Shown here in pieces: positions 17,672 through 26,872 of a DNA stretch of 64,000 bases. A model generated the notes under the pieces. It saw only the letters and a program-made list of their open reading frames with translations. It was not told the DNA's origin and searched no databases. Made by a program: the position numbers and the translations under genes. Position 1 is the first letter of the stretch, and every line of letters starts with the position of its first letter. This stretch comes from Gluconacetobacter aggeris (GTDB lineage Bacteria > Pseudomonadota > Alphaproteobacteria > Acetobacterales > Acetobacteraceae), in assembly GCF_014174395.1 (NCBI RefSeq), contig NZ_JABEQD010000001.1, forward strand, positions 372,001 through 436,000, read 5' to 3'.

Positions 17672-17754
17672 GTTCAGGAGTTTTGTGCCGGGAACACACG
17701 ATGCCCCTGAACCGATCAAAAGTCTTTTTGCTTCTTTTTCTTCAGAAAAAGAAG
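17672..17754. repeat. R1 interspersed repeat, copy 1
   Basis: The unit starts GTTCAGG and later has CCTGAAC (outer inverted repeat). A fixed block reading AAAAGTCTTTTTG follows, then the hairpin CTTCTTTTTC-TTCA-GAAAAAGAAG (17731-17754). The same order and almost identical right half occur at 26791-26872. It ends ten bases before the stop of rbfA, between two convergent genes, and should act as a two-way terminator. Confidence 0.82.
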
Positions 17755-23724: not shown

Positions 23725-23897
23725 CCCCAAGAAAAGCGGAAGATGAAGGAATGCAGCTGATATAGGCGATAACGCATGCCGCCGCAAGGTGCATGCGCCG
23801 GCAGCACCCGGGCGGTCCCCAGGGGCTACATTACATTACAATCACGTCCTCGTTTGCATGCTTGCCCAACCGCATGAGGCACACGCATGATGCGGAC

Positions 23898-24500
23898 ATG
23901 AGGCAGACGCCCGACCCCGAAGCACGCGCCGCGCCCGACGAGGCCGGACCCGGCAAAGGCCGGCCCCTATGGTACGGCCTGGCGGCGGGCATGATCGTCG
24001 TGGCCGGTTTCAGCGCCCGCATGGCCAGCCAGAGCGACCACCCGGCCCCGGCGCCCGCCCCGATCGTCGGCGATGCCGCGCACAGCGCCGCCGCCGGGGC
24101 CGGCACCCTGACAAGCACCCAGCAATTCGCCATGATCGCGCCCGACAACGCGCCGCGCGCCCTGCAGCAATCGGGGCTGACGCCCGACCAGCAGGCCCGG
24201 ATCCTGGCCGGCATCCGCAAGCGGGAATACCGGCTGGTCCAGATGCCGCTCTATGACGAGGGCGGCACGGGCGGCATCGTGACCGTCAGTTCGGGCGGCA
24301 TCACCCAGACCGTACCGCTGACCCCCAAGCCGCGCACCGTGCTGCTGCCCATCCGCATATCCGGCGAGGTCGATATCGCGCCGGTTTCCGATCCTGGCCC
24401 CACCGGCGTGGCGCCGGGAGCCATCACGGTCCTGGGGCCGACGCCGCTGCCGGTCATTCACCGGGACCAGATGCTTGTTCTGGATGTGATCGTCCAATGA
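23898..24500 (+). CDS. Small membrane-anchored protein of unknown function, gene A of a three-gene AAA+ locus
   Basis: I do not recognise a family. The 200-residue product has a charged cytoplasmic start ('RQTPDPEARAAPDEAGPGKG'), one membrane segment (about residues 25-42, 'WYGLAAGMIVVAGFSA') and a Pro/Ala linker. The periplasmic part contains 'SGLTPDQQARILAGIRKREYR' in two pieces and ends in a beta-rich stretch 'TVLLPIRISGEVDIAPVSDP...LVLDVIVQ'. It overlaps the next gene by four bases (ATGA), so the two are coupled. The start is uncertain: ATG 23874 is in frame and neither site has a good ribosome-binding site. It is divergent from rimP. A periplasmic role is inferred from topology only. Confidence 0.75.
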   Translation: MRQTPDPEARAAPDEAGPGKGRPLWYGLAAGMIVVAGFSARMASQSDHPAPAPAPIVGDAAHSAAAGAGTLTSTQQFAMIAPDNAPRALQQSGLTPDQQARILAGIRKREYRLVQMPLYDEGGTGGIVTVSSGGITQTVPLTPKPRTVLLPIRISGEVDIAPVSDPGPTGVAPGAITVLGPTPLPVIHRDQMLVLDVIVQ

Positions 24501-25765
24501 AGGCTCTCCTGCCCGCCCTCAACCGGCTGATGCCGGTCATGATGGTCGTTTTCCTGATCCTGGCCAGCCTGCAGGCCGCGGCCTCGCTCCATCTTTCACT
24601 CGCCAGCCTGACGCATTTCATGGAATGGTGTGCGCCGGCCTTTCCGGTGCTGATGGGCGGGAGCAGCCTGCTGGCCTTGGCGGGACTGATGTTCGAGACC
24701 CGCGCCGAACGGCTGGCGCGCAAGGGGCTACGGCGCCGACGGGGGTGGATGATGGATGTACTGGCCAGGCTGACCAATCGCACCGCGCTGGAGGAAATGC
24801 TGGCGCGCGAACAGAAAGAAACGGTGATCGATGCCGAGGAACTGGCGGCCAGCCTGCGCGCGCGGGTAATCGGGCAGGACCAGGTCTGCGAGGACATCGC
24901 CGCCCAGCTCCGCCGCCGCATGGCGCTGCAGGTGCGCGGCAAGCCGGTCGGCATCTTCCTGCTGGCTGGGCCGCCGGGCACCGGCAAGACCTATCTGGCC
25001 AAGCAGATGGCCCGGCAGCTCGACCGCCCGCTGCTGCATTTCGACATGACGCAGATGAGTTCGCCGCATGCCGCGACGCAGCTTTTCGGCTCGCCCAAGG
25101 GCTATGTCGGCTCCGACACGTTCGGCAAGCTGACCGGCGGCCTGAAGGAAAAGCCCGACGCCGTCGTCCTGCTCGATGAAATCGAGAAGGCGCATCCCGA
25201 CGTCTTCAAGAAATTCCTCACCGCGTGGAATGACGGGCACGTCACCGAGGCCTCCACCGGCCAGCAGATTTCCACCGTCCGCGCCATCTTCGTGCTGACG
25301 TCGAACATCGCGACCGATGCCCTGTCCGAGATCGCCGACCGCCTGGCCGACGAACCCGACCGCATGCGCGCCGAGTCGGTCGAGGCCCTGCGCCAGGCCG
25401 GCTTCGCGCCCGAAGTGCTGAACCGCCTGGACCGCATCTTCGTCTTCCGTGCCCTGACCGGCCTGGACGTGGCCCGCGTCGCGGCGCTGGAGATCGAGGC
25501 GATGATCGAAAGCTACGGCCTGAGGGTGGAGACCGGCGGCATCGACGCATCGCTGCTGTTCGAGGTCATGCGCCGCCAGAGCAAGATGGGTGCCGCCGCC
25601 AGCGCCCGCGACCTGGTGCGGTCGATCGAGGACATGATGAGCGACTCGCTGATTTCCGCCCGCCAGCAGGGGGCGAAGATGGTGCGCGTCATTTCCGGCG
25701 AGAACGGCGTGACCGCCGAAATCGCCAACGATACCGAGGCCCAGCGGGCCCGCGTCCTGCGCTGA
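24497..25765 (+). CDS. Membrane-anchored ClpA/ClpB D2-type AAA+ ATPase, gene B of the locus
   Basis: 422 residues with two N-terminal membrane segments (about 12-32 and 48-65). Positive charge at both cytoplasmic ends places the ATPase in the cytoplasm. One AAA+ module resembles the second domain of ClpA/ClpB. It has Walker A GPPGTGKT (158-165), pore loop 'KGYVGSD' (201-207), Walker B 'VVLLDEIEK' (Asp227, Glu228), sensor 1 'LTSN' (Asn270), 'LNRLDRI' with arginine-finger candidates Arg310/Arg313, and a sensor-2-like Arg371 in the small domain. No IGF/IGL ClpP-docking loop is seen between sensor 1 and the arginine finger, so it is more likely an unfoldase or remodeller than a protease partner. 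It is coupled to gene A by ATGA and lies 26 bp before gene C. Confidence 0.85.
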   Translation: MKALLPALNRLMPVMMVVFLILASLQAAASLHLSLASLTHFMEWCAPAFPVLMGGSSLLALAGLMFETRAERLARKGLRRRRGWMMDVLARLTNRTALEEMLAREQKETVIDAEELAASLRARVIGQDQVCEDIAAQLRRRMALQVRGKPVGIFLLAGPPGTGKTYLAKQMARQLDRPLLHFDMTQMSSPHAATQLFGSPKGYVGSDTFGKLTGGLKEKPDAVVLLDEIEKAHPDVFKKFLTAWNDGHVTEASTGQQISTVRAIFVLTSNIATDALSEIADRLADEPDRMRAESVEALRQAGFAPEVLNRLDRIFVFRALTGLDVARVAALEIEAMIESYGLRVETGGIDASLLFEVMRRQSKMGAAASARDLVRSIEDMMSDSLISARQQGAKMVRVISGENGVTAEIANDTEAQRARVLR

Positions 25766-25791
25766 CCCGCTTTTCCCGTACGGCGACCTGA

Positions 25792-26787
25792 ATGTCCGCA
25801 GCTTCCCGCCTCTGGCATCGCGCGCCGATCTGGCGCGCGATGCTCTATTGCATCCCCCTCTTCACGGCGCTGACGCTGCTCTACCCGCCGGCGTACCTGA
25901 CGCGTGCGGTCCCGGCCCTGCGGCCGGTGTTCGACCGGATCAATCGCACCCTGGGCCGCACGATGCCCCCGCCCGCACCGTCCTCCTCCCCCGACGCGCC
26001 CGACGCCGCACCGCCGGCGCCACCGGTGGACGGCGCGCCGGACAATGGCCAGCAGACGGCGGGCGGCCCGCAACTGGCGGCCCCCCCCATCACTTCGGAC
26101 CTGGCAGGAGCCATCCCCTTCGCCGGACGCATCCTGCCCCTGCCCGCCGGCACCTGGCATCCGGTGCTGACGACACAGAGCGGCCCGCACGGCGAACTGC
26201 TCAGCAACGTGCTGGTGCGTGCCGAAGGCGGCGTCGTGACCGGGGTGATCATCGCGCGCGCCAGCACGCAATCGCTGCCGCTCTCGACCGTCGATTCGAT
26301 GAATAATGGCTGCCATGACGACCGGAACTACCTGTCCAAAATCGTCCCCAGCGCATCGAAAGTGATGGAATGCTGGTTTACCAGCCATGTCCAGATCGAA
26401 GGCCAGCCGCTGAGCGACAGCGTGGACATCCAGACCGCGTTCAACCGCCTGCACGTGCTGGGTTTCCCGATCCCGTACGTCATGCTGGTCGCGACCTGGA
26501 ACTATGCCGAAGCCGCCACCGATCGCGGTGCGAATATCGAGAACGTAACCATCCTGCTCAGCCCGGCCCGCAAGGGCACCATGACGCTGCCCGCCCCGCC
26601 GGAACAGTGGCTGAAACAGGCCCTGCCGCAGAACCCGGGCGCCGAGCGCTTCGTCAACGCCGCCAATGGCTGGATGGACGGCTGGACGACCATGCTGCGG
26701 CGCGGCTTCCATGGCGACCTGACGAACGGCAGCCCCGAACTGGTCCGCGCCAGCCGCGATCCGGCCTCGGTCCTGCCGGGCGAGTGA
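25792..26787 (+). CDS. Membrane-anchored periplasmic protein of unknown function, gene C of the locus
   Basis: 331 residues, family not recognised. One N-terminal membrane segment lies at about 15-37 ('MLYCIPLFTALTLLYPPAYL'). A Pro/Ala/Asp-rich linker (about 55-100) then leads to a compact C-terminal domain (about 108-315). That domain has two cysteines in 'NNGCHDD' and 'VMECWFTS' that could form a periplasmic disulfide, with 'LPAGTWHPVLTTQSGPHGE' at its start and tryptophan-rich helices near the end. Same single-anchor, linker, exported-domain plan as gene A. It starts 26 bp after the ATPase gene and ends four bases before the R1 repeat, so the operon has just these three genes. Confidence 0.78.
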   Translation: MSAASRLWHRAPIWRAMLYCIPLFTALTLLYPPAYLTRAVPALRPVFDRINRTLGRTMPPPAPSSSPDAPDAAPPAPPVDGAPDNGQQTAGGPQLAAPPITSDLAGAIPFAGRILPLPAGTWHPVLTTQSGPHGELLSNVLVRAEGGVVTGVIIARASTQSLPLSTVDSMNNGCHDDRNYLSKIVPSASKVMECWFTSHVQIEGQPLSDSVDIQTAFNRLHVLGFPIPYVMLVATWNYAEAATDRGANIENVTILLSPARKGTMTLPAPPEQWLKQALPQNPGAERFVNAANGWMDGWTTMLRRGFHGDLTNGSPELVRASRDPASVLPGE

Positions 26788-26790
26788 TCT

Positions 26791-26872
26791 GTTCAGGAAC
26801 CTTGCGCTTGCTCAAGCCAAGGTTCCTGAACGAACAAAAGTCTTTTTGCTTCTTTTTCTTCAGAAAAAGAAG
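26791..26872. repeat. R1 interspersed repeat, copy 2
   Basis: GTTCAGGAACCTTG and CAAGGTTCCTGAAC make a perfect 14-pair stem (26791-26804 with 26818-26831), and an inner GCTTG/CAAGC closes the loop. The fixed block AAAAGTCTTTTTG and hairpin CTTCTTTTTC-TTCA-GAAAAAGAAG (26849-26872) follow, identical to copy 1 over this block. It fills the gap between gene C and the convergent LysR gene, starting three bases after one stop and ending nine before the other. Confidence 0.85.

Follow-up and report, generated by a model that had tools for sequence, protein, structure and literature searches.

Three jointly conserved genes of acetic acid bacteria hint at one undescribed machine built around a membrane-tied Hsp100-type ATPase

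Introduction

Most Hsp100 motors known are soluble rings, and their rings or modules pull substrate in from the N-terminal side; the IGF/IGL loop serves for docking on ClpP. FtsH, Yme1 and Msp1 have one or more N-terminal membrane helices and an AAA+ module at the membrane. In the ExeA-ExeB and GspA-GspB systems, an inner-membrane ATPase is accompanied by an anchored periplasmic partner. Human CLPB (Skd3) carries ankyrin repeats at the place where the protein B described below has membrane helices.

Here we analyse three same-strand open frames, A, B and C, located at 23898-26787 (+) of a 64,000-nucleotide stretch of the Gluconacetobacter aggeris genome (the window). The frames hint at one undescribed machine. 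No description of the A-B-C trio was met in the titles and abstract openings searched, a partial coverage that does not show absence from print. The main text of PMC12041372 has no mention of Clp, ATPase, rimP or nusA.

Results

Layout of the locus

The features of the locus are as follows (coordinates in the window, strand, description).

23898..24500, +, gene A: 200 aa, exported and N-terminally anchored protein, secure only in Acetobacteraceae
24093..24497, +, exported domain of A (residues 66-200): predominantly beta, plus two helices, in an AlphaFold2 model
24497..25765, +, gene B: 422 aa, two membrane helices and one ClpB/ClpA-D2-like AAA+ module
24527..24694, +, membrane helices of B (residues 11-29 and 48-66), by hydropathy
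24968..24991, +, Walker A of B, GPPGTGKT (158-165), by alignment with the ClpB/ClpA-like frames of the same genome
25100..25111, +, pore loop of B, GYVG (202-205), aligned with the GYVG of the same ClpB/ClpA-like frames
25166..25180, +, Walker B of B (224-228, with D227 and E228), by residue alignment
25421..25435, +, NRLDR of B (309-313), by residue alignment; presumably the arginine-finger region
25792..26787, +, gene C: 331 aa, anchored exported protein
25807..25836, +, N-terminal RLWxRAPLWR motif of C, by conservation; candidate docking site for B
26104..26784, +, exported domain of C: residues L P G W C C P invariant across a wider family (the cysteines are C174 and C194 in C)
26792..26831, no strand, inverted repeat after C, read by eye; possible terminator
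26837-26872, +, 36-base repeat bounding the unit, with an exact second copy at 17719-17754

An original prediction, made from this DNA alone, had placed an ATGA overlap between A and B, the start of C 26 bp past B, and a repeat as the boundary of the gene row. The overlap and the B-C gap were confirmed on the open frames, and the repeat is real: the 36-base exact pair in the window had no counterpart in 100 shuffles. The N-terminus of A is not fixed, as a longer in-frame start exists at 23793. The divergent upstream genes we take, by recognition, to be rimP and nusA.

In acetic acid bacteria the trio adjoins the nusA region, and a flank of the rimP/nusA type recurs in many relatives. Deeper lineages have other flanks, next to which A-B-C stays joined (L100-L102, L105, L106 and L108). 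The 4-base A/B overlap was found in 41 of the 71 named loci that have A. Since the A-B-C order recurs across Acetobacteraceae, the arrangement is more than chance.

On the minus strand an antisense open frame of 399 aa (25513-26712) runs across B and C. Long antisense frames were also seen at several related loci; we take them as an artefact of high GC.

Gene B

B had been predicted to combine two membrane helices with a single ClpB/ClpA-D2-like AAA+ module, and this was borne out by hydropathy and profile matches. We observed matches to Pfam AAA_2 (6e-37) and to the NCBIfam models of ClpB (3.3e-51) and ClpA (3.2e-48), both with scores far under the cut-offs. The score against the whole-protein ClpB model was 174.6 against a cut-off of 1232.1, B having one AAA+ module, not two. 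The FtsH model gave 0.001 (18 bits), the curated TssH model 141.9 bits (below its cut-off of 884.95) and Pfam Torsin 23.5 bits (below the gathering score of 27). In a PDB search the best solved matches of the B profile were the second modules of ClpE, ClpC, ClpB and ClpA. Within its own genome, the B profile scored 833 bits on B; next came 157 and 134 bits for frames of 872 and 880 aa, which we take to be ClpB and ClpA, respectively. The identity of B to these frames was 32.0% over 319 columns for the former and 30.4% over 326 columns for the latter.

Both a catalytic AAA_2 module and an aromatic pore loop are present in B, as in ClpB and Hsp100 proteins in general. An alignment revealed no IGF/IGL loop in B or in the presumed ClpB frame, while IGF was present in the ClpA-like frame; a HExxH zinc protease site was looked for in B and none was found. 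With neither the ClpP loop nor HExxH, remodelling or membrane extraction would be likelier for B than degradation. In PHROGs and PADLOC, too, B matched a number of AAA+ models, the best being phrog_4871 (7.5e-61), an ATP-dependent protease; we took these matches as general AAA+ likeness.

The charges flanking the two helices (+2, -1, +5) place the AAA module in the cytoplasm. Among the B orthologues, 72 of 75 had two hydrophobic segments (hydropathy threshold 1.3).

Gene A

In window A, hydropathy showed an N-terminal hydrophobic segment that stays under a threshold of 1.4; between it and the exported domain lies a low-complexity linker. At a threshold of 1.3, one hydrophobic segment was found in 70 of 71 A orthologues. 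Charge and layout suggest that the exported domain is periplasmic. The residues ahead of the anchor are poorly conserved (0.33), which uncertain starts may explain in part.

No usable match to A was found in Pfam, NCBIfam, PHROGs or PADLOC, and PDB sequence profiles gave nothing convincing; the best Pfam match of single A members (0.009) was taken as chance. In the search of the class, the A profile reached E<=0.001 in 3 of 278 genomes, namely its own and two with weak matches. For structure prediction, 53 of 55 alignment rows and the window piece were used (54 sequences), with over-long A frames trimmed to a later in-frame start. The AlphaFold2 model of the A domain had a mean pLDDT of 92.6 and a pTM of 0.85. 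A Foldseek comparison of this model with the PDB produced no match at E<=0.001; the best were brief matches to beta sandwiches, CBM60 and MmpS5 among them, which did not reach 0.001, and no fold name was assigned from them.

Gene C and its relatives

C runs from an N-terminal hydrophobic segment through a low-complexity linker to its exported domain. In window C, hydropathy placed segments at 13-31 and, inside the domain, at 136-154; among orthologues one segment was found in 62 of 75, two in 12 and none in 1 (threshold 1.3). No usable match was found in Pfam, NCBIfam, PHROGs or PADLOC. The best Pfam match of C members (0.055) and a CitG match (0.0073, 15.8 bits against a cut-off of 272.3) were taken as chance. 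PDB sequence profiles gave nothing convincing, the best match (0.019) lying over the N-terminal part.

The AlphaFold2 model of the C domain, made from 54 of 58 alignment rows and the window piece, had a mean pLDDT of 91.6 and a pTM of 0.90, and Foldseek found no PDB match for it at E<=0.001. Assignment to the UTRA/GntR effector domains was not adopted: these matches, the best for C, started from 2.6e-3, with a query TM of about 0.25-0.30 and rmsd mostly near 10, and none reached 0.001. Lower matches, also short of 0.001, included lipid-binding folds and, from the viral library, START-like entries. The modelled domain thus has a weak likeness to UTRA that may serve as a lead only.

The C profile detected kin in 11 of 289 class genomes, its own included. 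A broader profile, partly built from these kin, detected them in 15 of 278, again with its own genome, and four were new (G288, G342, G442 and G471). In an alignment of 17 rows, L P G W C C P were kept without exception. With these common invariant residues and the profile match, the C domain belongs to an unnamed alphaproteobacterial family of secreted proteins, which we call PLPPGxW and of which C is an anchored member. No model in the Pfam and NCBIfam sets tested matches the family. The original prediction had placed A and C in no recognised family; this stood for A, for which Pfam and NCBIfam gave no match, and had to be amended for C, which does have relatives, unnamed as they are.

The flanks of the 15 distinct stand-alone relatives of C, covered to at most about 1.5 kb on either side, showed no A- or B-like frame; such relatives show that the domain of C can do without an ATPase. 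The two invariant cysteines, together with signal-peptide-like or lipoprotein-like starts of the relatives (read by eye), support a periplasmic placement of C. In the class genomes the family comprises L122-L131, L257 and L259-L261, which are secreted or lipoprotein-like. L122 has two tandem domains of the family and L131 has a SHOCT end; in two of the stand-alone relatives, the part beyond the C domain matches SHOCT or DUF2061. L120, in a genome within Acetobacteraceae (G024), has two adjoining distant C-like frames, with no A or B match in the surrounding stretch.

The mean column conservation at residues 6-16 of C was 0.82, compared to 0.43 in the domain and 0.25 in the linker. RLWxRAPLWR is the best conserved stretch among those compared, followed by PFAGRxLPLPAGxWHP (0.75). 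The strict motif occurred in 97 of 101 distinct C and in none of the 15 distinct stand-alone relatives. Of the four C that do not have it, L154 and L191 differ from it by one letter, L181 has a doubtful start and L120 is distant. We infer that the motif probably docks C on B.

Distribution and co-occurrence

In profile searches of 200 Acetobacteraceae genomes we found A in 44, B in 46 (at E<=1e-55) and C in 52. It had been predicted that the genes would travel together, with rare co-occurrence as the refuting outcome; the survey found all three in 43 of the 46 genomes with B, and C in all 46. The three genomes with B and no A (G106, G152 and G193) all have a degenerate B. Of the 52 genomes with C, six gave no B: G097 and G171 have a degenerate B too divergent for the threshold, in G085 the locus lies at a contig edge, G024 has the distant C-like frames, and G094 and G104 have weak local matches. 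A without B was seen in G125 alone, as a weak match (E 6e-4).

Among 75 named loci with C, B lay beside it in all 75 and A in 71. Their genera include Gluconacetobacter, Komagataeibacter, Novacetimonas, Acetobacter, Asaia, Gluconobacter, Neokomagataea, Acidomonas, Bombella and Saccharibacter, as well as others. The named-genome scan was made with two peptide patterns, and a species outside its result is not thereby shown to be free of the genes.

All of the 190 class genomes, which include the own genome and those of two other family members, had some AAA+ match to the B profile. The best match outside the own genome reached 171.7 bits, compared to 833 for B. The matches listed sit on frames of 558-1074 aa, as would be the case for ClpB or ClpA, with one exception of 388 aa. 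With this distribution, A-B-C is a long-standing unit of the acetic acid bacteria and their close relatives.

The small Acetobacteraceae genomes G077, G158 and G102 had no match to A or C and are candidates for loss of the whole unit. Among the matches listed, those of G077 and G158 to the B profile were all ClpB/ClpA-like.

Absence of A and decay of the B engine

Residues were tallied first on 125 rows and then on 96 distinct B; profile A3 was built without the A-less B. All 89 distinct B that lie beside A were intact at K164, T165, D227, E228, N270, R310 and R313, and residue 203 of the pore loop was Y or F in every one of them. Conversely, none of the seven distinct B without A was intact, and six had lost the pore-loop aromatic.

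The seven A-less loci are L191 (Bombella sp. ESL0385), L192 (Saccharibacter sp. EH611), L193 (S. floricola), L194 (ESL0709), L093 (G171), L095 (G106) and L103 (G152). In L192 and L193 the Walker A threonine and the aromatic are lost and Walker B is swapped; L194, L093, L095 and L103 have lost the pore-loop stretch and other residues; L191 has kept K and T and lost D, E and the sensor asparagine. A search for A elsewhere in the genome gave nothing at E<=0.001 in six of the A-less genomes, while the controls G066 and G137 matched; nor was there a match at this threshold in the seventh, searched without a control. Read from the residues, A and the engine of B stand or fall together. The link could also reflect common loss of a third need.

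We mapped the absence of A on a NusA tree of 43 rows chosen from 112 loci with NusA. It took five changes on the best tree, three of them forced by starred branches. A-less loci stand beside A-bearing sisters in the pairs L191/L204 (Bombella) and L103/L099, both with starred support; Saccharibacter stands beside L092 (G137) with weaker support (87/77), and L093 is a long branch. Among 500 shuffles, 27 were as clustered on the tree as the absence of A. A sign test on three pairs gave p 0.25, with 0.05 unreachable, and adds nothing, as A absence and B decay, identical in the residue tally, were entered as one label. The tree cannot tell loss of A from gain; the presence of A in deeper lineages argues for loss.

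At about 179299-179873 of G137:C9 (L246 / L092), A seems to be split over two frames, with an intact B adjoining. This may be an early step or recent loss, a sequencing error or a counterexample.

Selection on the loci

The seven A-less B are open frames of 402-472 aa, near full length, each adjoining an open C frame. For the A-less Saccharibacter pair L192-L193, dN/dS was 0.058 for B, 0.072 for C and 0.035 for NusA, and these low values indicate purifying selection on B and C. For comparison, five pairs with A had dN/dS of 0.019-0.060 for B and 0.014-0.055 for NusA. As for the other A-less comparisons, L194-L093 was saturated, while L191-L204 (B 0.236) and L103-L099 (B 0.152) span the transition. 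Between L191 and L204 the identity was 48.5% for B, 47.9% for C and 96.4% for NusA; B and C both changed fast across this transition. Renewed constraint after the change is supported by one pair, L192-L193. Plain pseudogenisation of the A-less B is disfavoured by the frame lengths in all seven and by the dN/dS of B in that pair.

Discussion

That A, B and C make up one inner-membrane machine of the kind modelled here seems to us an evenly balanced proposition, in which a hexamer of B, the complex, the direction of pull, the topology of A and the roles of A and C are all presumed. Points against it are the small number of independent changes, three to five, the split A beside an intact B in G137, the stand-alone relatives of C and the lack of a confident fold match for A or C. 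B would be a threading ATPase of the Hsp100 type (ClpB-D2-like), tied to the membrane by its two N-terminal helices. As these anchors lie on the substrate-entry side, the natural direction of pull would be out of the membrane and into the cytoplasm. Absent where catalysis has gone, A would have its tail in the cytoplasm and its beta domain in the periplasm, and would be a dedicated client of B or an adaptor feeding clients to it. C, which is kept without catalysis and so may be bound to the body of B, would be a periplasmic receptor or sensor tethered through its N-terminal RLWxRAPLWR. The best reading is that A would be needed for the ATP-driven work of B, while C would dock on B separately.

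The original prediction had given A and C one plan. Both do have the anchor, linker and exported domain; still, they are not equivalent, as only the presence of A tracks the catalytic state of B. It had also proposed a membrane Clp-type ATPase with exported partners, acting in remodelling, extraction or secretion. The unit, the anchored ATPase and the partners were found, and nothing found supports secretion; we infer remodelling or extraction.

Several other explanations account for part of these observations. The origin of the C domain in a secreted family and the persistence of B and C without ATPase residues would suit a transmembrane signalling relay, in which C senses the periplasm and alters the state of B, A is an output or a brake, and threading is secondary. 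We consider such a relay unlikely, since the pore-loop aromatic, kept in every A-linked B and lost in six of the seven A-less ones, points to threading. A might instead be the sole client, with B pulling on the cytoplasmic tail of A to reset or remove it and C as a regulator. The presumably cytoplasmic residues ahead of the anchor and the absence of A where catalysis is lost speak for this, but a tail as poorly conserved as that of A, even if uncertain starts contribute, would be unusual for a dedicated recognition site, which leaves this explanation rather improbable.

A membrane-anchored AAA+ module with exported partners also brings to mind outward translocation of protein to the periplasm in the manner of Bcs1. 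The Hsp100 entry side, however, faces the membrane here, and no nearby cargo gene is common to all lineages, so that translocation of this kind is very unlikely. Finally, the genes might be unrelated and joined by chance or co-transcription only, given that the flank is stable too in acetic acid bacteria; the trio is nevertheless kept in deeper lineages with other flanks, and A absence coincides repeatedly with B decay, which makes mere neighbourhood the most doubtful of these explanations.

To return to the machine of A, B and C, it is a tentative thought, somewhat short of an even chance, that it is a trans-envelope Hsp100 machine of a new type, with an A-dependent ATP-driven job and a non-enzymatic job with C that outlives the motor, and with pseudo-ATPases evolved several times. 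A membrane-tied single-module Hsp100 with fixed exported partners would give industrial organisms an envelope machine that is as yet unstudied. B is kept across acetic acid bacteria and is nearly as constrained as NusA. The natural lineages without A, where B is catalytically dead judging from its residues, offer a ready comparison of motor and scaffold roles.

Comparison with known systems

B shares with ClpB and Hsp100 proteins the AAA_2 module, Walker A and B, the GYVG pore loop and the sensor and arginine-finger residues. Unlike them, it is a single module without D1, N or middle domain, and has two membrane helices and the dedicated A and C. Solved ClpE and ClpC head the matches of the B profile; on the other hand, B differs from ClpA, ClpC and ClpE in that it has no IGF/IGL loop and shows no sign of ClpP docking. 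Human CLPB (Skd3) has, like B, a single ClpB-D2-like module, and the PDB search matched it (8zrs, 7ttr); we know of no A or C partner for it. In contrast to FtsH, Yme1 and Msp1, B has its best matches among Clp/Hsp100 models and is without HExxH. A and C, unlike the partners in ExeA-ExeB and GspA-GspB, match no such Pfam family. The C domain has the L P G W C C P of the PLPPGxW family, whereas the anchor motif is absent from its stand-alone members (0/15). As a motor, B is a variant within a known class. In the titles and abstract openings searched, neither the assembly nor its repeated conversion, linked to a partner, into a likely pseudo-ATPase appears to have been described.
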